From positions 1-20,475 of IMG/VR virus record IMGVR_UViG_3300036715_000359: a DNA stretch of 20,475 nucleotides; one strand, 5' to 3'. Origin of the DNA: a virus. Below the pieces are notes generated by a model, which saw nothing but the letters and a program-made list of their open reading frames with translations, was not told where the DNA came from and did no database searches. Within the stretch, counting starts at the first letter, position 1. Every line of letters starts with the position of its first letter. Positions 2,510 to 13,234 of this stretch are shown piece by piece. Position numbers and translations under genes: made by a program.

Positions 2510-2533
2510 ACGGCAAGTGGATACGCGCACCCT
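2510..2533 (-). promoter_or_regulatory. Repeated promoter-like element, copy A
   Basis: On the minus strand AGGGTGCGCGTATC occupies 2533-2520 and is identical to copies at 8159-8172 and 13221-13234. After three bases it continues as TTGCC, as in the other copies. A possible -10-like TCTAAT follows further downstream. The element begins inside the stop codon of the nozzle gene and precedes the gp14-like gene by about 45 bases. No good -35 hexamer at 17 bp is visible, so a phage RNA polymerase or an activator-dependent promoter is more likely than a plain sigma-70 promoter; that is inference. Confidence 0.6.
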
Positions 2534-4715
2534 AGCTGCCGATTGCGACTTCCATCGTGAGATTGACCACGGTCAGCGGCAGCGGGTCAGACTGGCGAAT
2601 CACGACATGGCCGCTGTTGCCCCATGACGGCGTAATCAGCAGTTCGATCTCGTCGCTCTTGAGCGCAGGCGGCGTGCCGGGTGGCTCGGTGGTGCGCTGC
2701 TTGGCTTCGGTGAGGTGTGCGGTGTCCGGGCCGACGAAGATTCCGCTTGAGCGATAGACGCGCAGCCATACCTTGTTGACGTTCTTCTGCCGCCCCTGGC
2801 CGAATGCGGCGTCGATCTGCATCGCCAGCGGCAGGGTCTGCAGGTCGGCAGTGATGGGAAGTCCCACTTGTACCTTGCTGGCCGCCTGGTCGAGCGTGAT
2901 CGCGCCACCAGTGACGACGCGCTGCGGATGCACCGAGCCATCAGCAAGGATGCTGACTGTCTTTCCTTCGAGCGCGCTCAATCCGCTGATCGTGATCGCG
3001 GCGGCGCCGGAGTAGGTGAACCCGCAATCCACGAAGAACGCATCGGAAGCGGTGGCGAATGCACGCGATGCAAGGCGTTCGATGTAGCGCACCGATGAAC
3101 CGTTTATCGTGCGCTGGATGACGCAGTAAAGCCGATCCTCATTCCCTTCGGCCACGACCGCGACCGACTCGAATACGCCGTCGGTGTCATGCCAGTGCCA
3201 GCCGCCGATCTGCTGCTCGGGGATATAGGTCAGCCCCAACATCTTGCCGGATGTCGAGACGAACCAGACAATCGGCTGCGGCGCCTTGGCATAAGCCATG
3301 TCGGTGACATCGTAGCCATCGAACAGATGGGCCGAGCGCAGCGACAGGTCGCCGGTCACGAAGCCGTTTGCCTGCCAGTTGTAGGCGCACTCGCGGACAT
3401 GCCCGCCGCGCGCCGCCCCGTACAGCATGGTGTTGTTGATCAGCGCAGGCTGGACATTGGACGCGCCGACATAGGACTGCGGTCGCACGCTGATCGTGCT
3501 GGGCGTGATCGCGTCCGAGTTGACCGAGGTCACGCGCCACTCGGCGGAACTAGTCAGCAGCAGAAGCTGCGTCAGCGGAACAATGTGGCGGATCGTATTG
3601 GCTTCACGCGCGGCTACCCGGAAGGCGATGCGGTCGTCGTCCCGCGTCGGCAGCGAATACGACATAGATGACTCGGTGCCGCTCTTTGTCATCCAGATAT
3701 TCTGTGGCTTGGCAGTCGTCCCTGCAAAGCAGCGGCGCTGCTCGTAATAGGACACGGCAGCAGGATAGGCGCCGGTCGTGTTGAACACCGTCTCATAAGT
3801 CGGCGGCACTTTCGACAGATCGGGCGCGATGTTGTCGTCAATTATCGACAGCCCGGTGGTCTGGCCGATGTAGCCATACAGTCCACCCTGCAGTTTGAAC
3901 ACGTTGTATCGCAGCGCTCCAGTGACCGCCGACCATGAAACGGTATTGAGCCGCCCGGTGGTGAACAGGTTGTTAGTGCAGGTCGCAGCAGTCGATGCGG
4001 TTGACTCGCTGAAGCCGTCGGCATCGACAGCGGTGATGACGTAGCTGTATGACGAAGTGGTGTCTACCACGTTTGGCGTAGCAGTCTGCCCGGTCGGCGA
4101 TGCAATCGGCGAGGTGAAGACGATGGTCGTCAGTTGCCAGTTGGTCGCGCCCACTCGGCGCAACTCACGCGGTGCATAGTTCGGATGTACCAGGGTCAGC
4201 ACGTCAGCTGACTGGACATAGTGAAGATCGAACAAGTCAGCCTCAGCATAAGGCGTCGGCACTTCATACTCGCCGGTCGCCGGTTCAGCATACCAGTAGG
4301 AGGCATTCGGCGGCGCATTGCTGGTGGTCGGAGCGGTGCAATAGTAATTGACCCCGACGCTTGAACAAAGGCTGCCGACGACATAAGCCGTGGCGCCGTT
4401 GTAGGCGGCAGGCGTCCCGGCCAGCAGCGATGCACCCTGCGTATGGAAACGGACATAGCCATCGCCCATTTCTAGGATCATCGTCTGCGTGGTGGAATAA
4501 GTGAACGGAAGCAGCCGAACCTTCTTCGCCGAGTTCTTGACCGCGCGCACAAACGCGAAGCCTGGCCGGTTCTCGGCTGGGCCTTGTGGCTTGACAATGA
4601 AGTTGCGGCAGGTCGCCAGGCTGGAATGCGCCTTGGCATCGTCAATGCGACCGAACATTTCGGGCGAGACTTCGCCGTTCGAGAACGACATGGAAAGGCT
4701 GCGCAGGTTCGCCAT
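2532..4715 (-). CDS. Tail tubular protein B-like (T7 gp12-type tail nozzle)
   Basis: At 727 residues this is the size of gp12-like nozzle proteins, which form the distal tube of the short tail. The N-terminus contains MSFSNGEVSPEMFGRID followed by CRNFIVKPQGP and ENRPGF, a signature I associate with podoviral stabilization/nozzle proteins. Residues about 107-142 (AYVVGSLCSS ... ASYWYA) resemble a CBM5/12-type chitin/carbohydrate-binding insertion with two Cys. Residues about 203-300 look like a fibronectin-III-type domain (YSYVITAVDADGFSE, then WSAVTGALRYNVF). The ATG overlaps the stop of the gp11-like gene as TGATG, so the two tail genes are coupled. The inserted domains may touch the cell surface, which is inference. 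Confidence 0.85.
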   Translation of the reverse strand: MANLRSLSMSFSNGEVSPEMFGRIDDAKAHSSLATCRNFIVKPQGPAENRPGFAFVRAVKNSAKKVRLLPFTYSTTQTMILEMGDGYVRFHTQGASLLAGTPAAYNGATAYVVGSLCSSVGVNYYCTAPTTSNAPPNASYWYAEPATGEYEVPTPYAEADLFDLHYVQSADVLTLVHPNYAPRELRRVGATNWQLTTIVFTSPIASPTGQTATPNVVDTTSSYSYVITAVDADGFSESTASTAATCTNNLFTTGRLNTVSWSAVTGALRYNVFKLQGGLYGYIGQTTGLSIIDDNIAPDLSKVPPTYETVFNTTGAYPAAVSYYEQRRCFAGTTAKPQNIWMTKSGTESSMSYSLPTRDDDRIAFRVAAREANTIRHIVPLTQLLLLTSSAEWRVTSVNSDAITPSTISVRPQSYVGASNVQPALINNTMLYGAARGGHVRECAYNWQANGFVTGDLSLRSAHLFDGYDVTDMAYAKAPQPIVWFVSTSGKMLGLTYIPEQQIGGWHWHDTDGVFESVAVVAEGNEDRLYCVIQRTINGSSVRYIERLASRAFATASDAFFVDCGFTYSGAAAITISGLSALEGKTVSILADGSVHPQRVVTGGAITLDQAASKVQVGLPITADLQTLPLAMQIDAAFGQGRQKNVNKVWLRVYRSSGIFVGPDTAHLTEAKQRTTEPPGTPPALKSDEIELLITPSWGNSGHVVIRQSDPLPLTVVNLTMEVAIGS

Positions 4716-5350
4716 CAGAAGTTCCAGGAGGTGATGGGCTTGGCGCCGCGCGCCGCGATAAATGCGGGCGTATGGTCAGGCCGACGCTTGCGCTGGTTGG
4801 AATCCGATGCGGTCGCCTTCGACAGAATGGCCGCGAACATGCTCAGGCACTGCTTCGCCATCGCAGCGCCCGCATCGCCCTTGAGGATCGGCCCGGCCAG
4901 ATGAGACGCCAGCAGCCACCCGAGCGCGTCGGTGAACAGCGGCGAGAACTTGGTCGGGTCGGTGATGCGGCAGGAATAGATCAGCGATGCGGTTTCCTGA
5001 TTGGTCAGGATGATCTCATTGCCACTGTCGTCAACCTCGGAATCGAATTCCTGCGTCGGGTCGTCGCTCGATGCCAAGTCTGGCAGAACAGATAGCAGGT
5101 TGAGCGCGTCATTCGGCTGGGCGTAGGCGAACATCCAGTTCCAACTTGGCGAGGTTGTCAGCGCCAGCAGTGCACGCTTGGTGGCGAACGACCAAGGATG
5201 CATTTCAAGCAGGGAGTCGCGCGCGATGGGATAGAAGCGTGCGCAGTGTTCAGCCTGAGCCGAACCTTCTGGCGGGTCGATGCTGGACACGGTGGCGGTG
5301 TCGCCAAGGTGCGCAAGCGCCAGATTACAGATGTCGATTTCGCTGCTCAC
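4715..5350 (-). CDS. Tail tubular protein A-like (T7 gp11-type adaptor)
   Basis: This 211-residue protein starts MSSEIDICNLALAHLGD, a typical opening of gp11-like tail tubular/adaptor proteins, and carries YPIARDSLLEMHPWSFA further on, also characteristic. Such proteins form the ring joining the portal to the nozzle. The length matches the family (roughly 190-210). The start is GTG at 5350 with Shine-Dalgarno AAGGGGC 6 nt upstream. A strong terminator lies just upstream (5368-5394), so expression needs read-through from the capsid cassette or an unseen promoter. It is followed directly, with a 1-base overlap, by the nozzle gene. Confidence 0.88.
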   Translation of the reverse strand: MSSEIDICNLALAHLGDTATVSSIDPPEGSAQAEHCARFYPIARDSLLEMHPWSFATKRALLALTTSPSWNWMFAYAQPNDALNLLSVLPDLASSDDPTQEFDSEVDDSGNEIILTNQETASLIYSCRITDPTKFSPLFTDALGWLLASHLAGPILKGDAGAAMAKQCLSMFAAILSKATASDSNQRKRRPDHTPAFIAARGAKPITSWNF

Positions 5351-5367
5351 GGCTTGCCCCTTTGTTC

Positions 5368-5394
5368 AAAAAAATGGGGGCGCAATGGCCCCCA
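5368..5394 (-). terminator. Rho-independent terminator after the capsid cassette
   Basis: On the minus strand a perfect 7-bp stem TGGGGGC / GCCCCCA with a 6-base loop (CATTGC) is followed at once by seven T. It lies between the small gene 5422-5625 and the tail tubular A gene. In T7 the main late terminator Tphi also sits between the capsid gene and gene 11, so the placement is the same. Confidence 0.9.
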
Positions 5395-5421
5395 CATATT
5401 GCGCTCTATGGTGGGAGATCG

Positions 5422-5625
5422 TCAGACCTGCTGCTCGTCGAGCGACACATCGGGTTCAACCGTCTCGCTGGCCTTGGACTTGCCCTTCGCCAGTTCGATG
5501 TTGGACCCGAGCTTCACCGGCTTGCCGTTGACATCAGGGAAGACGGTCGTGAAGCGTTCGCCCTCCTTGACCTCGCGGCATTCATGGGAAAGCCAGGTCG
5601 TCTGCAGTGCAATGTAGTCAGGCAT
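5422..5625 (-). CDS. Small hypothetical protein in the capsid cassette
   Basis: This 67-residue protein starts MPDYIALQTTWLSHE and has a Lys/Glu-rich C-terminus ending in VSLDEQQV. I do not recognise a family with certainty. The first half (GERFTTVFPDVNGKPVKLG) reads as a small beta-rich domain. The start ATG at 5625 has a strong Shine-Dalgarno (AGGGG, 6 nt). It lies 10 bases after the cement gene and before the strong terminator, making it the last gene of the capsid cassette. A minor head or head-completion role is possible from position only. Confidence 0.75.
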   Translation of the reverse strand: MPDYIALQTTWLSHECREVKEGERFTTVFPDVNGKPVKLGSNIELAKGKSKASETVEPDVSLDEQQV

Positions 5626-5635
5626 CGTTCACCCC

Positions 5636-6091
5636 TTACAGCACGCTAAATCCACTGGCGTAATACTTGCCGTCAGTTACATCGCTGTCTGCGAATAAGC
5701 AGGAGAAAGCGCCAGCCGTAAGCGGGCCGTTTGCCACTACATACTGCACGCCAAGATACTGTTGACCAAGTTTCTGAGCGGCCAAAATTGTCTTGTTAAG
5801 GTGCAGGCTGATTAAGCCACGACCTGCCGTCAGTTCAGCCTTGCCGATTGCATCGGTGGACGAAATGACGGTCGGGCTGGACAGGTCAGAAGCAGCAGAC
5901 GTTAAGATCTGAAATGTGACCGTTGCTGAACCAGCAGCCGTTACGGTAGTGTCAACCGAGAAAAGCGCATACAGTTCCTCTCCGGGCGCCATGTCACGCG
6001 TAGGAAGTCCGAAGTTAATCTTGTCAGTAGATACGGCGGTAGTTGTAACAGCCTGGGCGTTTGAAACTTGCAAGGATGCGTCGGTAATCAT
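5636..6091 (-). CDS. Bbp16-like capsid cement (decoration) protein
   Basis: From the ATG at 6091 (MITDASLQVSNAQAV) the product is 151 residues. The opening, then VSTDKINFGLPTRDMAPGEE and LYALFSVDTTVTAAG, match what I know of the Bbp16-type cement proteins of BPP-1-like phages, which stabilise the HK97-fold shell from outside. An upstream ATG at 6142 is in frame, but it reads through the hairpin at 6120-6141, while 6091 has a Shine-Dalgarno (AGAAGGGA), so I prefer the shorter form. The gene directly follows the major capsid gene, as expected for a cement protein. No catalytic role is expected. Confidence 0.82.
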   Translation of the reverse strand: MITDASLQVSNAQAVTTTAVSTDKINFGLPTRDMAPGEELYALFSVDTTVTAAGSATVTFQILTSAASDLSSPTVISSTDAIGKAELTAGRGLISLHLNKTILAAQKLGQQYLGVQYVVANGPLTAGAFSCLFADSDVTDGKYYASGFSVL

Positions 6092-6119
6092 GATATTTCC
6101 CTTCTCAAAAAATGAGTGA

Positions 6120-6141
6120 TGGGGCAGCCAAAGCTGCCCCA
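6120..6141 (-). other. Strong hairpin just after the major capsid gene
   Basis: On the minus strand TGGGGCAGC pairs perfectly with GCTGCCCCA around a 4-base loop (TTTG), 5 bases after the capsid stop codon. A run of six T follows, but only after a gap of eight bases (TCACTCAT), so this is not a textbook terminator. It may act as a weak terminator, or as a 3' stabilising hairpin or processing site that sets the capsid-to-cement ratio. Confidence 0.6.
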
Positions 6142-6146
6142 ATCAA

Positions 6147-7166
6147 TTAGCTGACAACGCTCTCGGCATAGGTGAGCTTGTCAACACTACGCACCGGGAC
6201 GCCCATGAACTTCAGGGTCTGGATAGTATTGCCGAACTGGCTCAAGCCATCGGTGACGCTCAGTGCGTTCTGCGACTTCTCAAGCGCCTGGATCATCAAG
6301 CCTTCTTTTACAGTCCGGTTGCAGTAGAAGGCAGGGCGTCCCATGTTGATGTTGGGGATACGGGCCAGAGCGCGCATCATCAGCTTGATCAGGTTGGTCG
6401 AGGCAGTAGCCGCCTGGGTGCCGGTCACGCCGACCCAATCTGATGCGTCGATGTTGGCGATGCGAACCACGTAGCGCCAATCCTTGACCACCAGGCCGCC
6501 GTCCCACTGGAACAGGCTGCGTGCGGCCTGATACCAGCCGTTACTACCATCCGGAACAGATTCTTCGCCCAGGTCACGGTTGGCAAGGCCAGCGCGTGAA
6601 CCCTTGGGGAAGGTTCCGAACACGGTCTGTTCACCCCACACCACCAGATACATCGAGGCGTTGTCGGTGCTGGCACCGCCTGCCAGGATGACGTTGCCGC
6701 CGTTTCCTGCAGAGGTTGACGAATACCGGGTAGCTAGACCGCTAAAGGTCTTCATGTCGGTGCCGACGTTGCCGTTGAAGAATTTGCCAGTCATTTCCTG
6801 GTTCATCGCCTCAATGAATGGCGATTCTTCTGACAGGCGGAAGCCTGCGCTGTTGCCGTTCAGGTTCAACAGCTTGGCGTCGATGTGGCTGCGCGCTTCC
6901 AGCATCGCGCACGGCTCGGTAATCTGAGCAGTGGTTGACTTGCTGGACGGCACACCGGCGTTGTACTGGCGCCAGTAGACAGCAGGCAGGCCGGTGCGAA
7001 CGGTCGTGACGTGGGATGTGGCCTGGTTGGCTTCCTTCCATACGATGTCTTCAAGCACGTCGTTCTGCTGCGAAAGCAGTTCGGCAATGGGGTCGATCTT
7101 GCCATCGGGCGACATGCGCTTCGAGTAATCGGCAAGGGTGAGTTGTCCTGCGCTTAGTGTTGCCAT
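6147..7166 (-). CDS. Major capsid protein (Bbp17-like, HK97-type fold)
   Basis: The product is 339 residues. It has an N-terminal region with AELLSQQNDVLEDIVWKEAN, a middle with FIEAMNQEMTGKFFNGN and FSGLATRYSSTSAG, then YLVVWGEQTVFGTFPKGS and a C-terminal FYCNRTVKEGLMIQALEK. This pattern matches capsid proteins of the BPP-1 type, whose HK97-like fold has a permuted topology (known for BPP-1; assumed here). Position between the scaffold and a Bbp16-like cement protein supports it. The start ATG has Shine-Dalgarno AGGAGA about 8 bases upstream. A strong hairpin follows the stop codon. I am confident of the capsid role, less so of the exact fold class. Confidence 0.88.
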   Translation of the reverse strand: MATLSAGQLTLADYSKRMSPDGKIDPIAELLSQQNDVLEDIVWKEANQATSHVTTVRTGLPAVYWRQYNAGVPSSKSTTAQITEPCAMLEARSHIDAKLLNLNGNSAGFRLSEESPFIEAMNQEMTGKFFNGNVGTDMKTFSGLATRYSSTSAGNGGNVILAGGASTDNASMYLVVWGEQTVFGTFPKGSRAGLANRDLGEESVPDGSNGWYQAARSLFQWDGGLVVKDWRYVVRIANIDASDWVGVTGTQAATASTNLIKLMMRALARIPNINMGRPAFYCNRTVKEGLMIQALEKSQNALSVTDGLSQFGNTIQTLKFMGVPVRSVDKLTYAESVVS

Positions 7167-7179
7167 GATGCTTCTCCTG

Positions 7180-7827
7180 TTACGGGTTCATGTTGGGATA
7201 CATTTGCTGTGCGATGGATGGAGCGGAAGTGCTGCCGCCCTTGCCAGCCACATAGCCGTCTTCACTGATTGCCTTTCCGGCGCGGTAAAACGCCCGGATG
7301 ATCTCGGGATGGTTGCCGATTCCGGACTCGTTCAGCAGGGTGCGCAGTTCAGGCGTGCCGAAGGTTTCAAGTGCCTTCTGCGCGACCGCCATGTTCTCGT
7401 TGAGCTTGTCGCCGCCGAATTCCTTGTCGGACTTCGAATCGGTGGCCCACTGCTCACGAGCAGCATCAATCATTGCCTGCTGCTTGTTGGCGAGTGCCGG
7501 GCCAATCTTGTCGAGCATCAACTGTGCTGACTCGTTGGACAGGTTCAATTCCTTGGCGACTGCAGAGAATTCGGCCAGCACTTCGGGGTTAAATTCTTTC
7601 CCGTCTGGTGCCTTGAACTCGTAGGTTTCAGGAGCTCCTTGCGGCTTCGCCTCGCTGTCGGTCTTGCTTGCTTCTGCCGGTGCGGATTCGGCTGCCTGGC
7701 CTTCGGGTGCCTGCTGTTGACCGGGTGCATCCGCAACAGTAGCGGGTGCAGCATCGGTCGGTGTGGACGTGGCTGGGGCTTCAGTGGTGTTTGCGGCCTC
7801 ACTCGTCATCAGGGTTTCTTCTGTCAT
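7180..7827 (-). CDS. Capsid scaffolding/assembly protein
   Basis: This 215-residue acidic protein has a long disordered Ala/Pro/Thr/Glu-rich N-terminal third. It continues with TYEFKAPDGKEFNPEVLAEF and a charged helical segment (LNLSNESAQLMLDKIGPALA). The C-terminus (HPEIIRAFYRAGKAISEDGY) is typical of podoviral scaffold proteins. Scaffolds guide procapsid assembly and then leave. It sits directly upstream of the capsid gene, the usual position. ATG 7827 has Shine-Dalgarno AGAGG and gives a 29-base overlap with the Bbp19-like gene; a second ATG at 7809 is possible but has a poorer site. Confidence 0.85.
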   Translation of the reverse strand: MTEETLMTSEAANTTEAPATSTPTDAAPATVADAPGQQQAPEGQAAESAPAEASKTDSEAKPQGAPETYEFKAPDGKEFNPEVLAEFSAVAKELNLSNESAQLMLDKIGPALANKQQAMIDAAREQWATDSKSDKEFGGDKLNENMAVAQKALETFGTPELRTLLNESGIGNHPEIIRAFYRAGKAISEDGYVAGKGGSTSAPSIAQQMYPNMNP

Positions 7828-8131
7828 TCGCTGCCTCTTTGACCATTACTGGATACAACTCAGGGCATTGCGTGTTGATCACTGCCAGCAGACGGTTGCC
7901 CATGTTTCTATTTCCTTCAGCGAATGCCATCTGCATCGCATTGGTGTTGAAACTGAGGCGGAACGTCCCGGCCTGATCAAGAAAGCGATAAATAATCCGC
8001 CTTCCCCGCTTGCTACCCATGAGCCACTTGATGTCTGATTCTTCCGTGTCTGCTGCCAGCTTGTTGCGCAGTGCTGCCTGCTCTCTTGCGCGATCCTGGC
8101 TGCGGATGTCGGTCGGGTCTTTCATGCTCAT
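7799..8131 (-). CDS. Bbp19-like small phage protein
   Basis: The 110-residue product contains DIKWLMGSKRGRRIIYRFLD, then AGTFRLSFNTNAMQMAFAEG and NMGNRLLAVINTQCPELYPV, ending in an acidic tail. This matches the Bbp19-type family found next to the scaffold in BPP-1-like phages; its role is not established to my knowledge, but position suggests head assembly. It is the first gene after the terminator at 8187-8210 and the promoter-like element copy B. The start ATG at 8131 has no Shine-Dalgarno. Instead ATAGATTGCC lies 3 bases before it, exactly as before the cupin-like gene at 13193. A second ATG lies two codons in. Confidence 0.82.
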   Translation of the reverse strand: MSMKDPTDIRSQDRAREQAALRNKLAADTEESDIKWLMGSKRGRRIIYRFLDQAGTFRLSFNTNAMQMAFAEGNRNMGNRLLAVINTQCPELYPVMVKEAANDRRNPDDE

Positions 8132-8134
8132 GTT

Positions 8135-8172
8135 GGCAATCTATATGGCAGGTAATGCGATACGCGCACCCT
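8135..8172 (-). promoter_or_regulatory. Repeated promoter-like element, copy B, with start-proximal ATAGATTGCC box
   Basis: The minus strand has AGGGTGCGCGTATC at 8172-8159, then, at the same distance as in copy C, ATAGATTGCC at 8144-8135, three bases before the ATG. Copies B and C are highly similar along the whole stretch to the start codon. The element stands directly downstream of a terminator, so it probably starts the capsid-cassette transcript. Confidence 0.65.
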
Positions 8173-8186
8173 GTTTGATCGGGCGT

Positions 8187-8210
8187 AAAAAAGCCACCGA
8201 TATGGGTGGC
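8187..8210 (-). terminator. Rho-independent terminator before the capsid cassette
   Basis: On the minus strand GCCACC / GGTGGC (6-bp stem, loop CATATC) is followed immediately by six T. It ends the transcript coming from the portal/tail-enzyme genes, about 60 bases after the stop of the gene at 8271-8960 and about 15 bases before promoter-like element B. Confidence 0.85.
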
Positions 8211-8270
8211 CTTGGTTGGTGCTCAGAAAACCCGCCGGGTGCGCATTGTTAAGAGGCGTGGCGGGTGTTG

Positions 8271-8960
8271 TTACATGTTTATGGCATTGAGGATCGGCAG
8301 CCACTTATTATTAATATCCCACGGCTGCTGCACCCATGACCCGGCAATCTTTCGATAGCCACCCCACACCACGACCCCATCGCACAGTCTGGACAGCGTT
8401 TTGATTTGCAGGTGCCACATCGCATCCCCGACAGACCAGCCCTCTTGCCCGTCGAGCGGCGACTCCATCCACACGAATGGATAGACTGGCAGATTCGGGG
8501 CAACGCGGCGATACTGCTCGATCATCAATACCGCTGAGTCCGCCCATGCTATCGGGTCGGCAATCCACGTGTAGAGCGACGGGAACAGCGCATCCGTGTT
8601 GCGCAGAATGTTGGCGTACTGGTCGAACAGCGCCATCCACGCGATCTGTTGTGATGAGCCGCTCACTAGAATGCGCGGATCGTGGATTTCCAGCGCAGAC
8701 CCAAAATAGCCGAACGGCGCATCGCCGTAAGTATCAGCCCAGCGGGTCAGCCCTTTCAACTCCTGCGGGCTGCCGTGGGTTTCCACGTCGAGACACACCA
8801 GCGCATTCCCGGCCATTCTCGCTTTCAGATTGTCGGTGTTGAGCTGCGTCCCGGTATTGGCGTGAGTCACGCCGTCGAAGATGAACTGCTCATAAACGAC
8901 AGGCAGCTTCTCCCCAAAGTCCGGCGCACCCTTGAACTGCGTGGCATTGAGTACCCGCAT
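8271..8960 (-). CDS. Putative tail-associated protein, possibly TIM-barrel glycoside hydrolase-like
   Basis: From ATG 8960 (MRVLNATQFKGAPDFG) the protein is 229 residues. The frame stays open further upstream, but that part lies inside the deacetylase gene, and the ATG overlaps that gene's stop as TGATG. Visible stretches suggest a TIM barrel: ALVCLDVETHGS (strand with acidic residues), DAPFGYFGSALEIHD, LPVYPFVWMESP and a Trp-rich end (DGVVVWGGYRKIAG). Such patterns occur in phage glycoside hydrolase-like proteins (GH25- or hyaluronidase-like barrels), but I cannot name the family or the catalytic pair; Asp/Glu in LDVETHG and Glu in WMESP are candidates. Pairing with a deacetylase tail protein suggests a joint role in cell-surface polysaccharide recognition or degradation. 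Confidence 0.7.
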   Translation of the reverse strand: MRVLNATQFKGAPDFGEKLPVVYEQFIFDGVTHANTGTQLNTDNLKARMAGNALVCLDVETHGSPQELKGLTRWADTYGDAPFGYFGSALEIHDPRILVSGSSQQIAWMALFDQYANILRNTDALFPSLYTWIADPIAWADSAVLMIEQYRRVAPNLPVYPFVWMESPLDGQEGWSVGDAMWHLQIKTLSRLCDGVVVWGGYRKIAGSWVQQPWDINNKWLPILNAINM

Positions 8961-10732
8961 CAAAGCCCCACGCGCTGCTGGATTACAGTGGGCGCTGATG
9001 AGTAGGTGATCTTCACCGCCTCGCCCGGCTGCACAAGATAGATACCAGCGGTCTGCCCAGTGCTGGTGAAGTTCGTGCCGTCCATCGCAAAATCGATTGC
9101 GCTGACCGTGCCGCCCGATACCAGCAGGCGCACCGTCGTATAGGTGCGGTTGGTATATGTCCACGGCGACGTGCCAGCAGTGAACGTCTTGCTGTTCGGG
9201 ATCGTCAGGATATTGCGCGGTATTGTTTCACCTACGATGTTCAGCGCCTGTGACGGTGTGAACACGCGCAGCAGCCCTGCGTCCACCTTAGTCTTGACAT
9301 AGGCAATGAACGGCTCGAACGTATTGCGGTACATCTGGGATGTGCTTGGATAATCAGTGCCGTTACCGTCAGTTCCTGCGCCCGTCAGCAGTCCATATAC
9401 CTCATGTGTGAAGAAACTTGCAGTCCCACCATACATGATGAGTGAGTCGATCGCATTGGTAAGAAAGGCCAGCGTCTTGCCGCCTCCGGCCAGTGAGCCG
9501 TCCAGCAGCGGATTGATCTGCCCCACCAGCGTCGGCAGGTTGAACACACGCGACGACGCGCGCTGCCAGCGGCAACCGCGTTTTGCCAGTTCATAAATCG
9601 AACGCTGGTCGCTGGCGTTGTTCGGCGCGACAAACATGTCTGTCCCACGGATACAGCCAAGGCGGCGCAGTTCGTCGCGGCTGGCTTCGTATTCGTCAGC
9701 GATGCGCTGGGCGTCCTCGATTGAATTAAGCGAATTGTGCGATGCCGAGTGCGGGATCATGTCCCACCCCTGATCGTAATACAGCTTGATACGGTCGCGT
9801 TCGGAAGTGATCAGGTCATAGGTCGGGTTGGCCGGGTCGGCATTGGCGATAGGGACCGCTAGATAACCTTTGAACCCGGCGGCGTCCATCGCGGGTTTGG
9901 TATAGACATCAAGGTTACTACCCTGAATGTCGAAACCGATGGTCAGCGTGGCCGGGCCAGCACCGCCAAAATAGATGCCTTCAAGGAATACATCCGTCTG
10001 CTGAGTGTGAATATTATTAAATTCAAGTCGGCAATACGAGACCGGCGTGGTGGCAAAGTTATGCCCAAGGCCGACGACAGCCGGAGCCGGGTTATCCACG
10101 CTTGCCACGCGCGCGCCCCATGCTGTCACGTTAGTAGGGTTCTGCGTGCTGAAAAAATTGTTGTATTCGTTGGTGTGGATGAACAGTAGGTTCCAGCCTT
10201 CCATCAACTGCTGGTCGCCGTTGGTAAACACGGCATAGCGGCAGTTGTTGTAGTCTGTGCCAAGGTATAACTTCAGGTTTGGACGTGACCCCGACGCGAT
10301 GGTGTCATTCATGTTGTGCACATAAACCAACATAGCGACCACCCCACCCGCAGACAAGTCCCACGATAGCGCAGTTTTGCTGATGTTTCCGTAGTCCTGC
10401 GTCATGCTGCCGCCAGTCACTTTGAGCGCTGCACCTTCTCGGCGGAAAATCTCGTTGACTTTGGACTGCGCTGTATTGGTAGAAATATCGGGGGACATAG
10501 TCCAACCGATCAGGTCATTCGGCCCGGCAAGGCGTGTCCATTCTTTAGTGATGGTTGGACGGCCTGGAAATCGCTCAAGCTCGGTGGAACCCACCACCAA
10601 ACTCACAGAGCCATCCGGGTTGGTGGTGGATGTGACAAACATCGTCTCCCCACCATCAGCATCTTTGACGCCGACAATATCGCCGGTCGTGTTGTTATAC
10701 AAAAACGGTGAGCCTGGTTTCATGTAAGCCAT
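8960..10732 (-). CDS. Tail spike/fibre protein with polysaccharide deacetylase (NodB-like) domain
   Basis: This 590-residue protein has three apparent parts. Residues 1-50 (FLYNNTTGDIVGVKDADGGE) resemble a virion-anchoring segment common at the N-termini of phage tail proteins. Residues about 90-255 look like a beta-sandwich/CBM-like region. Residues about 262-500 resemble a NodB polysaccharide deacetylase: TIGFDIQG (Asp268, motif 1), HSASH (328-332, the metal-binding H-S-x-x-H motif), FVAPNN (motif 3) and FFTHE (His443, the late catalytic-His motif). The C-terminal 85 residues are a beta-rich domain (LLVSGGTVSAIDFAMDG) seen on podoviral spikes. The second Asp of motif 1 is Ile269, so metal binding may be altered. 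The likely role is removal of acetyl groups from capsule or O-antigen. Shine-Dalgarno AGGGG precedes the ATG. Confidence 0.8.
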   Translation of the reverse strand: MAYMKPGSPFLYNNTTGDIVGVKDADGGETMFVTSTTNPDGSVSLVVGSTELERFPGRPTITKEWTRLAGPNDLIGWTMSPDISTNTAQSKVNEIFRREGAALKVTGGSMTQDYGNISKTALSWDLSAGGVVAMLVYVHNMNDTIASGSRPNLKLYLGTDYNNCRYAVFTNGDQQLMEGWNLLFIHTNEYNNFFSTQNPTNVTAWGARVASVDNPAPAVVGLGHNFATTPVSYCRLEFNNIHTQQTDVFLEGIYFGGAGPATLTIGFDIQGSNLDVYTKPAMDAAGFKGYLAVPIANADPANPTYDLITSERDRIKLYYDQGWDMIPHSASHNSLNSIEDAQRIADEYEASRDELRRLGCIRGTDMFVAPNNASDQRSIYELAKRGCRWQRASSRVFNLPTLVGQINPLLDGSLAGGGKTLAFLTNAIDSLIMYGGTASFFTHEVYGLLTGAGTDGNGTDYPSTSQMYRNTFEPFIAYVKTKVDAGLLRVFTPSQALNIVGETIPRNILTIPNSKTFTAGTSPWTYTNRTYTTVRLLVSGGTVSAIDFAMDGTNFTSTGQTAGIYLVQPGEAVKITYSSAPTVIQQRVGL

Positions 10733-10744
10733 ATCAATCCCCTA

Positions 10745-12424
10745 TCATGTGTAACCGCTGAAGTTCCTAGTGACATCGGTCAGCGCGCTTGGTTGGTCGG
10801 TCTTGGCAGAAGCCAGTTTCTGTGCGGTATCTGCTGCCTGGTTTGCCTGTTCCTGCTGCGCGGCCTGCTGCTGCGCCTGCGCGCGCTGCTGGCGAATTGC
10901 CTGAACCTTGTCGGTTGGTAAGACCATTTCAGGGTCAACGCCCAGCATGTCGGCGTAAGAGTCGGCCCAGCGATCGGCGTCGAACTTATCGAGGACTTCA
11001 GGCTTGACCTGCGCGATCTGTTCCATGCTTGAAACAAAGCGGTCGATGCCATTGGTGGCGATGGCACGCTGCGCCTGGGCCAGCATTGAAACGAACTCGA
11101 CGTTGACCTGATGGCCCTGCAGTTCCTTCGGAGCAGGCGGCAGGATTCCAGAGTCGGCCATTTGGTCAAACGTGATGTCGATCAGCGGGTCAAGGATTTC
11201 GTTGTGCATCCGCTCTAACACCGGGCCGAGCATGAGCATCTTTTCCTCATGCCGTTCACTGACCTCAGTCGCTGTCATCCGTGAGTCCTGCTGGTTTGCA
11301 AGCATCATGAACAGGTCGGAGTAGAACGTGGAACGGATGCGCCCACGCACGTCCTGGATGTCTTCAAGCAGATACTGCAGGTTCAAGTTTACTTCGAACG
11401 CCGATCGGATGCCGCCATGCGGGCCAGCCACATCGACGTAAGACACACCGCCAGGCAGCATGTCCATATCCTTGTGCTTCATCGAGGTCGGCACTTGCAG
11501 CGGCGGGTTGGTCTGGTAGTCAATGCCCTGCGACTTGCGCAACTGCTCATGCTGTAACTGCTTGATGTCGCCCAGGGCTTCCATCGCTGGACTGTTGCCG
11601 TAGATGTCGCCGCCCGATACCGCCCAGCGGCCACACAATGCCGGGAATCGCTTGAACCCGGACTCGCGCAGGAACTTGTCGGTGACGTAGCCAGCTTCGA
11701 AGTAGATAGATGCCCACGGCATGTTCTTGGCGTCCTTCATGTTGGTGTCGCGGTTCTTGCGTGGCTCGATCACATGCACGACCGAAACCCACTGATCCAG
11801 CGCGTGTCGGTCGTACATGTTGCGCACCACGACGCTGCAGTTCTCATAGCCGAACTGGCTGACCAGTTGGTATACCGTCATCTGGAACTCGCGGTAGAGC
11901 GTATCGACCTTGCCGTTCTCATCCGTGCTGATGCTGTACTCGCCAGCCGTGACCGAATGGCAATGCACCACATTGTCAAAGTTGGGCAGGATGATCGTGA
12001 CTGCAGTGCCGAATGCGCCCAATTCCTCATACATCGAGTGCAGTGCACGGTAGACATTGGACTTGGCGAACACCATCTGCATCAGGCGCGTGACCTGGGC
12101 CAGCCATGCCTTCACCTCGGTTGACTCATCCAGCGCCGGGTCGGAGGTGGTGAGACGGAACCACGGACGCGCCGGGCTGGTCATGCCAGACATCATCCCG
12201 GCAGCCAGCACGCGCAGCGCGATGGTCGCGGTCGAGTCGTTGATCGAGTTGTGACGCTTCTCGCCACGGTCTCGGTCGGTCACGAAGAATCGGCCCGAGC
12301 GCGGCAGCAGGTATTCGCTGATCTCGCGCCAGTGGGCGATCCAGCTTGCACGTTCCAGCTTCAGGAACTGCAGACGCAACAGCAAGCGCTGTCGCGGAGT
12401 GAGTGCGTCCTTGGACTTGTCCAC
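10745..12424 (-). CDS. Portal protein (T7 gp8-like head-to-tail connector)
   Basis: At 559 residues this matches gp8-like portals, which form the 12-subunit ring for DNA entry and exit. Diagnostic stretches are RASWIAHWREISEYLLPRSG, LAAGMMSGMTSPARPWFRL, then MYEELGAFGTAV in the first third, and RMTATEVSERHEEKMLMLGP with ERMHNEILDPLID in the last third. The C-terminal 50 residues are Gln/Ala-rich. The start is GTG at 12424, abutting the TAA of the preceding gene with no clear Shine-Dalgarno, so it probably depends on translational coupling. It lies between the terminase group and the tail-enzyme module. Confidence 0.93.
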   Translation of the reverse strand: MDKSKDALTPRQRLLLRLQFLKLERASWIAHWREISEYLLPRSGRFFVTDRDRGEKRHNSINDSTATIALRVLAAGMMSGMTSPARPWFRLTTSDPALDESTEVKAWLAQVTRLMQMVFAKSNVYRALHSMYEELGAFGTAVTIILPNFDNVVHCHSVTAGEYSISTDENGKVDTLYREFQMTVYQLVSQFGYENCSVVVRNMYDRHALDQWVSVVHVIEPRKNRDTNMKDAKNMPWASIYFEAGYVTDKFLRESGFKRFPALCGRWAVSGGDIYGNSPAMEALGDIKQLQHEQLRKSQGIDYQTNPPLQVPTSMKHKDMDMLPGGVSYVDVAGPHGGIRSAFEVNLNLQYLLEDIQDVRGRIRSTFYSDLFMMLANQQDSRMTATEVSERHEEKMLMLGPVLERMHNEILDPLIDITFDQMADSGILPPAPKELQGHQVNVEFVSMLAQAQRAIATNGIDRFVSSMEQIAQVKPEVLDKFDADRWADSYADMLGVDPEMVLPTDKVQAIRQQRAQAQQQAAQQEQANQAADTAQKLASAKTDQPSALTDVTRNFSGYT

Positions 12425-12742
12425 TTATTGACCCAGCAGGGTTGACTTGCCGAGTGACAGGGAATTCGGGTCGATGCCAGACGCCCCGGTGAGCATCGTT
12501 CCAGACTGCCCGCCCCGCCCGGCCATCATTGCGGCGTCGATGCTATTGCGGGTGTCGGGTGTCTTCTGGTTGGACTTGTTCATCACCTGGTCTGCGGCGG
12601 TCGCCTGCGCCTGCGCGTTTGATGTCGCCTGTGCCAGCGCCTTCTTCTGCGCAGATGCCTGCTGTTGTCCGTTGTATACCGCCACGCCAACAGTCGCCAC
12701 TGCCCCGATTGCAGCCACTGCTGCTGCGCTAAGTCCGAACAT
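12425..12742 (-). CDS. Small Ala/Gln-rich protein with hydrophobic N-terminus
   Basis: From ATG 12742 (MFGLSAAAVAAIGAVATVG) the product is 105 residues. One hydrophobic N-terminal segment (about residues 4-25) may be a membrane segment. A helical Gln/Ala/Lys-rich stretch and a Gly-rich tail ending LSLGKSTLLGQ follow. Similar small proteins with a GTMLTG...LGKSTLLG-type tail stand beside the portal gene in other podoviruses, as far as I recall; their role is unclear. Shine-Dalgarno TTGGAG lies about 8 bases upstream. It overlaps the cupin-like gene by 14 bases. A longer in-frame start at 12814 exists but lies deeper in the neighbour gene. A minor virion or ejection protein is possible. Confidence 0.7.
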   Translation of the reverse strand: MFGLSAAAVAAIGAVATVGVAVYNGQQQASAQKKALAQATSNAQAQATAADQVMNKSNQKTPDTRNSIDAAMMAGRGGQSGTMLTGASGIDPNSLSLGKSTLLGQ

Positions 12743-13193
12743 CACTATTCTCCAATATGGTCTTTTCCTCGAACTGAATACCTGGGCGCCGCGTAAGCAG
12801 CAGTGCGGATTCATCTGTCATCGCGTCCTCGATGGAAACGATGTCAGTGAGATCTGTTTGCAATATGGTTGTCCACCAGGTATCAGAATGCGCAATTCCA
12901 GCGCGCTTGGCACCGGCCTTGGCTGGCAGGACGTTGAACCCAGTCAGTCGCTGCACGCCGTCATCTGTCGTAACGGTGATGTCTCCGTACATGACACAGA
13001 TGTTGTCCATGTTGGTGAGCGCGCCGGTCAGGACAGTTCCAGCCGGGATCATTCCAGTTCGCGCACACATGCCGCCGTGAATCACATGGGAAACTCCAAG
13101 ATCGACCTGCGGATGATCGAGCAGGCACTGCTCAAGATCGCGCACCGCCTCAATGGACGGCATACCGATGAAGATTAGGGGATTGGTTTCCAT
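12729..13193 (-). CDS. Cupin-like phage protein
   Basis: The product is 154 residues: METNPLIFIGMPSIEAVRD, then SHVIHGGMCARTGMIPAGTV, VLTGALTNMDNICVMYGDI and GFNVLPAKAGAKRAGIAHSD. The alternating beta-strand pattern with Pro-Ala-Gly turns resembles small cupin/jelly-roll phage proteins found next to portal genes in BPP-1-like phages. No full metal-binding cupin signature is evident, so a structural role is as likely as an enzymatic one. The ATG at 13193 is preceded by promoter-like element copy C and by the ATAGATTGCC box 3 bases away, without a Shine-Dalgarno. It is probably the first gene of the unit that includes the portal and tail enzymes. Confidence 0.78.
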   Translation of the reverse strand: METNPLIFIGMPSIEAVRDLEQCLLDHPQVDLGVSHVIHGGMCARTGMIPAGTVLTGALTNMDNICVMYGDITVTTDDGVQRLTGFNVLPAKAGAKRAGIAHSDTWWTTILQTDLTDIVSIEDAMTDESALLLTRRPGIQFEEKTILENSDVRT

Positions 13194-13196
13194 ACC

Positions 13197-13234
13197 GGCA
13201 ATCTATGCCGTAGGCAAACCGATACGCGCACCCT
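13197..13234 (-). promoter_or_regulatory. Repeated promoter-like element, copy C, with start-proximal ATAGATTGCC box
   Basis: The minus strand has AGGGTGCGCGTATC at 13234-13221 and ATAGATTGCC at 13206-13197, three bases before the ATG of the cupin-like gene. Spacing to the start codon is the same as in copy B. It overlaps a plus-strand sigma-70-like promoter, so the two directions may compete. Confidence 0.65.

Follow-up and report, generated by a model that had tools for sequence, protein, structure and literature searches.

In an incomplete viral genome fragment of 20,475 bases (IMG/VR record IMGVR_UViG_3300036715_000359; the whole stretch is called the window in the following), three identical copies of a 14-bp box, AGGGTGCGCGTATC, stand in front of three groups of late genes. 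These boxes are, with good probability, the upstream halves of late promoters, to which a small helix-turn-helix (HTH) protein that the window also encodes, a relative of Bbp27 of Bordetella phage BPP-1, would bind to recruit the host RNA polymerase. Computation establishes the element itself, with its spacing, strand bias and recurrence in related phages, and shows that it covaries with the HTH protein.

The late module, on the minus strand of the window, resembles that of BPP-1. The product of the portal gene matches PF12236 with 630 bits and the major capsid protein matches GP7 with 409 bits, the other genes of the module being those for Bbp19 (PF25181), the tail tube and nozzle proteins, internal virion proteins and the terminase; the portal protein and Bbp19 share 68-71% identity with their BPP-1 counterparts. 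The window carries the features that define a BPP-1-type late module, namely the box and a -10 hexamer at fixed spacing before bbp19 and other late genes, and a Bbp27-like gene.

The box and its downstream half

The three copies, first noticed in a sequence-only reading of the window, are exact and all lie on the minus strand: copy A (2533-2520) precedes the genes for the internal virion proteins, copy B (8172-8159) the Bbp19-like, scaffold-protease, major capsid and tail genes, and copy C (13234-13221) the short-tail-fibre/cupin-like, spanin-like and portal genes, so that the assignment of one copy to the head of each late group stands. The statement that all copies lie between genes is true of B and C, which are wholly intergenic, and fails in part for A, which overlaps the TAG stop codon of the upstream gene by two bases; only 3.2% of the window is intergenic. 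Furthermore, AGGGTGCGCGTATC is the only 14-mer with at least three copies in the window, and no 14-mer occurred three times in any of 300 first-order Markov simulations of it. When up to three mismatches are allowed, the window holds three more, scattered matches, of which two are on the plus strand and the third is on the minus strand; this is the chance level, 2.25 being expected in all, and none of them scores in the promoter model described below. In IMG/VR, nearly all of the exact 14-mer matches listed are single copies and only one (L020) is accompanied by the HTH gene; these mostly single matches probably reflect chance in a collection of that size.

A second half of the element had been missed. 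Exactly 15 nt downstream of each 14-mer, at positions 16-21 after it, lies a -10-like hexamer of the form TAnnnT, with a predicted transcription start 6 nt beyond. At copy A the hexamer is TAATGT (2504-2499) and the predicted start, at 2492, is separated from the ATG at 2474 by an 18-nt leader, ATTAACAGGGGGTTTCAG, which contains a Shine-Dalgarno sequence. At copies B and C the hexamer is TAGATT (8143-8138 and 13205-13200, respectively), and the predicted starts coincide with the A of an ATG, that of the bbp19-like gene at 8131 for B and that at 13193 for C; because the predicted start is the ATG itself, the mRNAs from B and C should be leaderless. A scan for a TTGACA-like -35 hexamer 16-18 nt upstream found none at A, B or C, in agreement with the sequence-only reading, the region being taken by the box.

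Three other assignments were tried and discarded. The TT[A/G]CC extension earlier proposed downstream of the box is present in the window copies, but its positions hold only 0.05-0.22 bits across 50 homologous sites, and it is ruled out as part of the motif by this lack of conservation in relatives. A sigma-54 promoter (GG-N10-GC) was dismissed by eye on account of its wrong spacing, and a -10 placed two bases further upstream (TATAGA) was dropped after alignment of the relatives.

Recurrence in related phages

The relatives, taken from a phage collection, were BPP-1, Limnohabitans phage DC33, ctEw122, ctQRb9, zth2-2 and SR18, and a scan anchored on Bbp19 yielded 80 viral and 7 genome loci. 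Variants of the 14-mer are found upstream of bbp19 in nearly all relatives and Bbp19 loci. The consensus over 50 distinct core-bearing bbp19 sites is GGT[G/A]CNCGTA[C/T]C, followed by 15 unconserved bases, a TA[G/A]ATT-like hexamer, usually six more bases and the start codon; as the 50 sites were chosen by their core, conservation of the core is partly circular, whereas neither the -10 nor the spacing entered into the choice. The core lies exactly 38 nt from the start codon in 41 of these 50 sites, the spacing also seen at copy B, and the TATAAT-like feature of sigma-70 promoters is present as TAnnnT, with the two outer T at 92% each and the A at 96%.

A promoter matrix built from the bbp19-upstream sites of the relatives, with the window excluded, finds in the window exactly copies A, B and C (18.2, 32.1 and 30.0 bits, respectively). 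Each complete relative holds 2 to 5 matrix sites above 12 bits, nearly all at the starts of late genes (bbp19, the bbp24/cupin-like gene adjoining terL, an internal-virion gene and a tail-fibre gene), compared with 0-0.25 matches per genome for 20 column-permuted matrices. Thus, the search in relatives that had been suggested as a check shows the element at homologous late-gene places in dozens of them, and the enrichment in one orientation is equally clear, with 150 matches on the strand of the HTH gene and 6 on the opposite strand over 119 HTH-bearing loci. In BPP-1 the cognate box, GGGTGCCCGTGCC, precedes bbp19, bbp24 and bbp9. Phage epsilon15, which lacks the HTH gene, gives a single weak matrix match of 10.8 bits, below the 14-bit cut-off.

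Two observations concern the records of the relatives. In BPP-1, at about 26260 on the minus strand, a weak box (8.5 bits) lies inside the annotated start of terS and directly before a downstream ATG, which suggests that the annotated terS reaches too far upstream and that the gene is served by a promoter of its own. The record of Limnohabitans phage DC33 (PQ492659.1) carries the taxonomy Inoviridae, yet by its genes it is a tailed phage of the BPP-1 type.

Promoter, RNA signal or foreign polymerase

The fixed distance between the box and the start codon in most copies would also be expected if the element acted in RNA, as a translational or processing signal before late genes. The sites at which the start codon lies elsewhere are informative in this respect. 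Among 88 distinct sites the start codon is 0-8 nt past the -10 in 68 (exactly 6 nt in 49), and none of these 68 shows a Shine-Dalgarno-like sequence, as against 12 of the remaining 20, whose leaders are mostly of about 18-30 nt. When the start codon is distant, as at copy A and in L130, L132 and L169, the spacing between box and -10 is kept, the codon moves and a Shine-Dalgarno sequence appears. What stays constant is, therefore, the distance from the box to the -10 rather than to the gene; this favours a promoter over a signal at the RNA level, and the covariation of a DNA-binding HTH protein with the box, described below, points the same way; an RNA element is accordingly very improbable. 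The close spacing is not peculiar to the sites from which the model was built, since 33 of 54 sites outside the bbp19 fronts, unused in model building, have 5-8 nt between -10 and start codon.

The idea of a phage-specific promoter put forward in the sequence-only reading is, thus, supported by the late position of the sites, their single orientation, the lack of a -35 box and their recurrence at homologous places. Of the two agents then proposed, a phage RNA polymerase or an activator, the activator is favoured, in combination with a host-type -10. A repeated one-orientation element without a -35 hexamer might also serve a single-subunit RNA polymerase or a sigma factor of the phage whose gene lies beyond the window, which holds an incomplete genome; however, a search for the gene of such a polymerase (PF00940) found none in 18 records (the window, itself only a fragment, six complete relatives and eleven IMG/VR relatives) while recovering the T7 control with an E value of 1e-109, sigma-70 region 2 (PF04542) was likewise absent from these 18 records in a search positive for 10 of 14 control genomes, the sites keep a -10 of sigma-70 type at a constant distance, and a published survey reports the SR18 group to be without an encoded RNA polymerase (PMC11053796). 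There is, on this evidence, little room for a phage polymerase or sigma factor. The -10, and the fact that neither PF00940 nor sigma region 2 turned up in the 18 records, point instead to the host polymerase.

A candidate activator encoded in the window

The activator had been placed outside the window, an assumption that is not supported, as a strong candidate lies within it at 16395-16141 on the minus strand. This Bbp27-like HTH protein of 84 amino acids (predicted isoelectric point, pI, 9.2), likely the late activator acting on the boxes, is singled out by its sharing across genomes, by covariation and by its AlphaFold2 (AF2) model, in which residues 59-66 form the recognition helix and include the covarying Ala63 and Ser64. 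Its gene, part of the leftward operon, lies shortly before terS and occupies the same place in relatives. Clustering of the open reading frames of BPP-1, DC33, ctEw122, ctQRb9, zth2-2, SR18, epsilon15 and the window showed that the Bbp27-like HTH family is the only small DNA-binding family common to all the motif-bearing genomes compared, and that it is absent from epsilon15. Upstream sequence of at least 7 kb is available for 22 Bbp19 loci, of which 21 carry both box and HTH gene and one (L174) carries neither; a scan starting from the HTH protein then enlarged the set to the 119 loci mentioned above.

In the GenBank record of BPP-1, Bbp27 (26340-26573) bears the label 'endonuclease', a probable consequence of the similarity between its HTH and those of HNH nucleases, and the ctQRb9 homologue is called a '54S ribosomal protein'; in both cases an HTH regulator seems to have been misannotated. 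The window protein matches HTH models only, and no HNH domain is found among the 25 families listed for 47 members of the family.

Covariation of protein and box

Box bases 3 and 5 were left neutral in the promoter model, and under this treatment no genome contained mutually conflicting boxes. Over 30 representatives of less than 80% identity, base 5 shares 1.41/1.52 bits of mutual information (MI) with HTH alignment column 57 (Ser64 in the window): Lys goes with C, Arg or Met with A, and Asp, Ser, Glu, Cys or Gly with G. For base 3 the best column is 56 (Ala63), Gln or Lys going with A and Ala, Arg, Gly or Val with G. The two columns correspond to adjacent residues within the recognition helix of the predicted structure. 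Control proteins from the same genomes give lower values, the best z being 4.3 for Bbp19, 8.6 for TerL and 9.4 for the portal protein, compared with about 12 for column 57, and the best of their columns reaching an MI of at most 0.80 for base 5, compared with 1.42-1.46; TerS, available from only 7 genomes, was unusable as a control.

Caulobacter phage SR18, which was not used in training and whose box the model missed, has Asp at residue 64, predicting G at base 5. On its minus strand GGTGCGCAT stands before terS, bbp19, gp56 and a tail gene, with one copy in the terminal repeat, and there is one match on the plus strand; SR18 fits the code linking residue 64 to base 5. A real code is also favoured by two separate origins of Lys with C on branches of the HTH tree, and by the pairing of Gln with A in combination with both C at base 5 (L131, L132, L151, L283) and G at base 5 (L203 and, more weakly, L257). 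In a subgroup of HTH proteins with the signature SC[IV]AHIATGRRRGQ (L255, L258, L266-L269), the boxes are GGGTGTCCGTGTC or GGGTATCCGTGTC, with base 4 changed as well.

Several results weigh against the assignment of the HTH protein as the activator. The HTH tree has only about 4 changes at base 5 and about 6 at base 3, and a branch-wise test of co-change for column 57 was not significant (p 0.10), so that part of the covariation is due to common descent; the simple code does not hold for L240 and L268; the AF2 model, with a pLDDT of about 95 over the HTH, matches generic HTH proteins in Foldseek/VIA-align searches (transposases, resolvases, Myb/SANT, GcrA and sigma-4), none of them decisive; and tblastn reveals a likeness to the DNA-binding tails of HNH nucleases. 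The small number of independent switches on the tree, the likeness to HNH nucleases and the 'endonuclease' label of Bbp27 would agree with a late promoter or operator bound by another protein, either a host factor or another phage regulator, the HTH gene (e.g. a trimmed relative of an HNH nuclease) merely tracking phage phylogeny. Nevertheless, the two top-ranking columns are neighbours in the recognition helix and exceed, for base 5, every column of three linked proteins, the HNH domain is absent, no other small DNA-binding family accompanies the motif in all genomes compared while epsilon15 has neither sites nor HTH gene, and the code extends to the unused SR18. Binding of the boxes by a protein other than the Bbp27-like one is, in our judgement, unlikely.

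Proposed mechanism

At promoters of this type the 14-mer would occupy about -41 to -28, the place of the sigma-70 -35 box, and the host-type -10 (TAnnnT, most often TAGATT), exactly 15 nt beyond, would form the downstream half. The recognition helix of the 84-residue HTH protein may bind the box, with residues 63 and 64 reading bases 3 and 5, and the bound protein could recruit or stabilize host RNA polymerase with sigma-70, replacing the contact of sigma region 4 with the -35. Given the location of the box, the HTH would take the position from which sigma region 4 ordinarily contacts the -35; the weak profile similarity of the HTH to sigma region 4 is consistent with this arrangement, and no proof of it. 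The outcome would be the expression of at least three late units, i.e. short tail fibre and portal, Bbp19 with capsid and tail, and internal virion proteins. For Bbp19 and the tail-fibre/cupin gene, the first base of the transcript is predicted to be the A of the ATG (leaderless), and at the internal-virion site a short leader with a Shine-Dalgarno sequence is predicted. We infer binding, activation, the use of the host polymerase, late timing and the exact start sites.

A protein occupying -41 to -28 might in principle obstruct sigma-70, as expected if the box were the operator of a repressor, or else a replication or packaging site. However, there is no -35 box to serve an unaided polymerase, the sites head late operons only, and pairing with a -10 at fixed spacing is typical of activation, so that a role other than that of an activator site is very improbable.

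The activator model can be taken one step further, in a form that is at present tentative and may well prove incorrect. The Bbp27-like proteins would then be one-helix 'minus-35 readers', probably exapted from the DNA-binding part of an HNH nuclease and replacing sigma region 4, which acquire orthogonal specificities through a two-residue, two-base code and drive leaderless capsid and tail mRNAs.

Relation to known systems

A phage late activator encoded beside terS and acting on a host-sigma promoter is an already known kind of regulator, exemplified by Ltr and RinA of Gram-positive temperate phages (PMC13123087). Ltr of Staphylococcus aureus phage phi13 activates a host-sigma late promoter via repeats upstream of the start site (PMC13123087). 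Like them, the Bbp27-like protein is a small basic regulator whose gene adjoins terS; however, at 84 residues and pI 9.2 it is shorter than the about 130 residues of Ltr/RinA, and Ltr serves one late promoter with four direct repeats (PMC13123087), in contrast with the 3-5 dispersed promoters found here, with one box each and leaderless starts. In comparisons made via profiles only, the HTH family had no match to an Ltr/RinA-type family in Pfam or NCBIfam, and gave only generic HTH and weak sigma-like matches.

These sigma-like matches involve sigma-70 region 4 in 17-19 of 47 family members, and 11 of the 47 weakly match the 'positive control sigma-like factor' model, which recalls Xpf, the positive control factor of PBSX. 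The kinship to phage HNH endonucleases consists of tblastn links over about 50-60 residues to actinophage and other HNH-annotated proteins, from which the family differs in having no nuclease domain, in its fixed position upstream of terS and in its covariation with a promoter box. Bbp27 of BPP-1 is a direct homologue in the same place with a cognate box, but with Lys as recognition residue and C at base 5, where the window has Ser and G. The combination of a phage protein, host sigma-70 and a -10 box at a promoter without a -35 is found with T4 MotA. Mor and C of phage Mu likewise act with host sigma-70 and a -10 at -35-less promoters (PMC4390567, PMC4461284). The protein family differs in these systems, and Mor uses inverted repeats centred at -43.5 instead of a non-palindromic box at -41 to -28. 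Xpf, for its part, has both sigma-2 and sigma-4 domains (PMC10141391), compared with the single HTH, without region 2, of the present family.

Searches of open-access papers, whose scope did not extend to the older BPP-1 literature with its 2004 genome paper, yielded no description of the HTH family, the box, the dispersed promoters, the leaderless starts or the residue-base code, and no account of how the late genes of BPP-1 are switched on.

Other features around promoter B

Adjoining promoter B on its upstream side, a hairpin resembling an intrinsic terminator (GCCACC-CATATC-GGTGGC, then TTTTTT) lies at 8187-8210 on the minus strand; it was read from the sequence and is missing from the list of the automatic scan. 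Also upstream of promoter B, a full-length match to the abiF antitoxin-type RNA (RF03085, 50.9 bits with a cut-off of 37) occupies 8230-8265 on the same strand and is followed by a terminator; no Abi_2 gene is found in the window. The corresponding pattern, CGCCANGCCTCTNAACNATGCNCA, occurs in 89 IMG/VR stretches with visible pairing changes (e.g. C-G, T-A, A-T and G-C), and PF07751 was found in none of 38 tested viral records bearing it, in a weak search that detected 1 of 14 control genomes. The RNA antitoxin of AbiF has been demonstrated in Clostridioides difficile (PMC12373285), and the phage-borne abiF-type RNAs are possibly decoys against a host AbiF.

Further upstream, 8271-10732 on the minus strand holds two genes, flanked by the portal gene on one side and bbp19 on the other. 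One has a weak likeness to polysaccharide deacetylases (PF01522) and the other is without a phage match; the stretch is probably a variable cargo or tail-enzyme region.

Significance

BPP-1 serves as the model phage in work on diversity-generating retroelements and on capsid structure. The analysis gives it identified promoters with predicted +1 sites and, in Bbp27, a candidate activator, as well as predictions at the level of single residues that can be tested. It also suggests that the capsid operon of a phage of Gram-negative bacteria is expressed from a leaderless mRNA, and offers pairs of phage activators and promoters with differing specificities.

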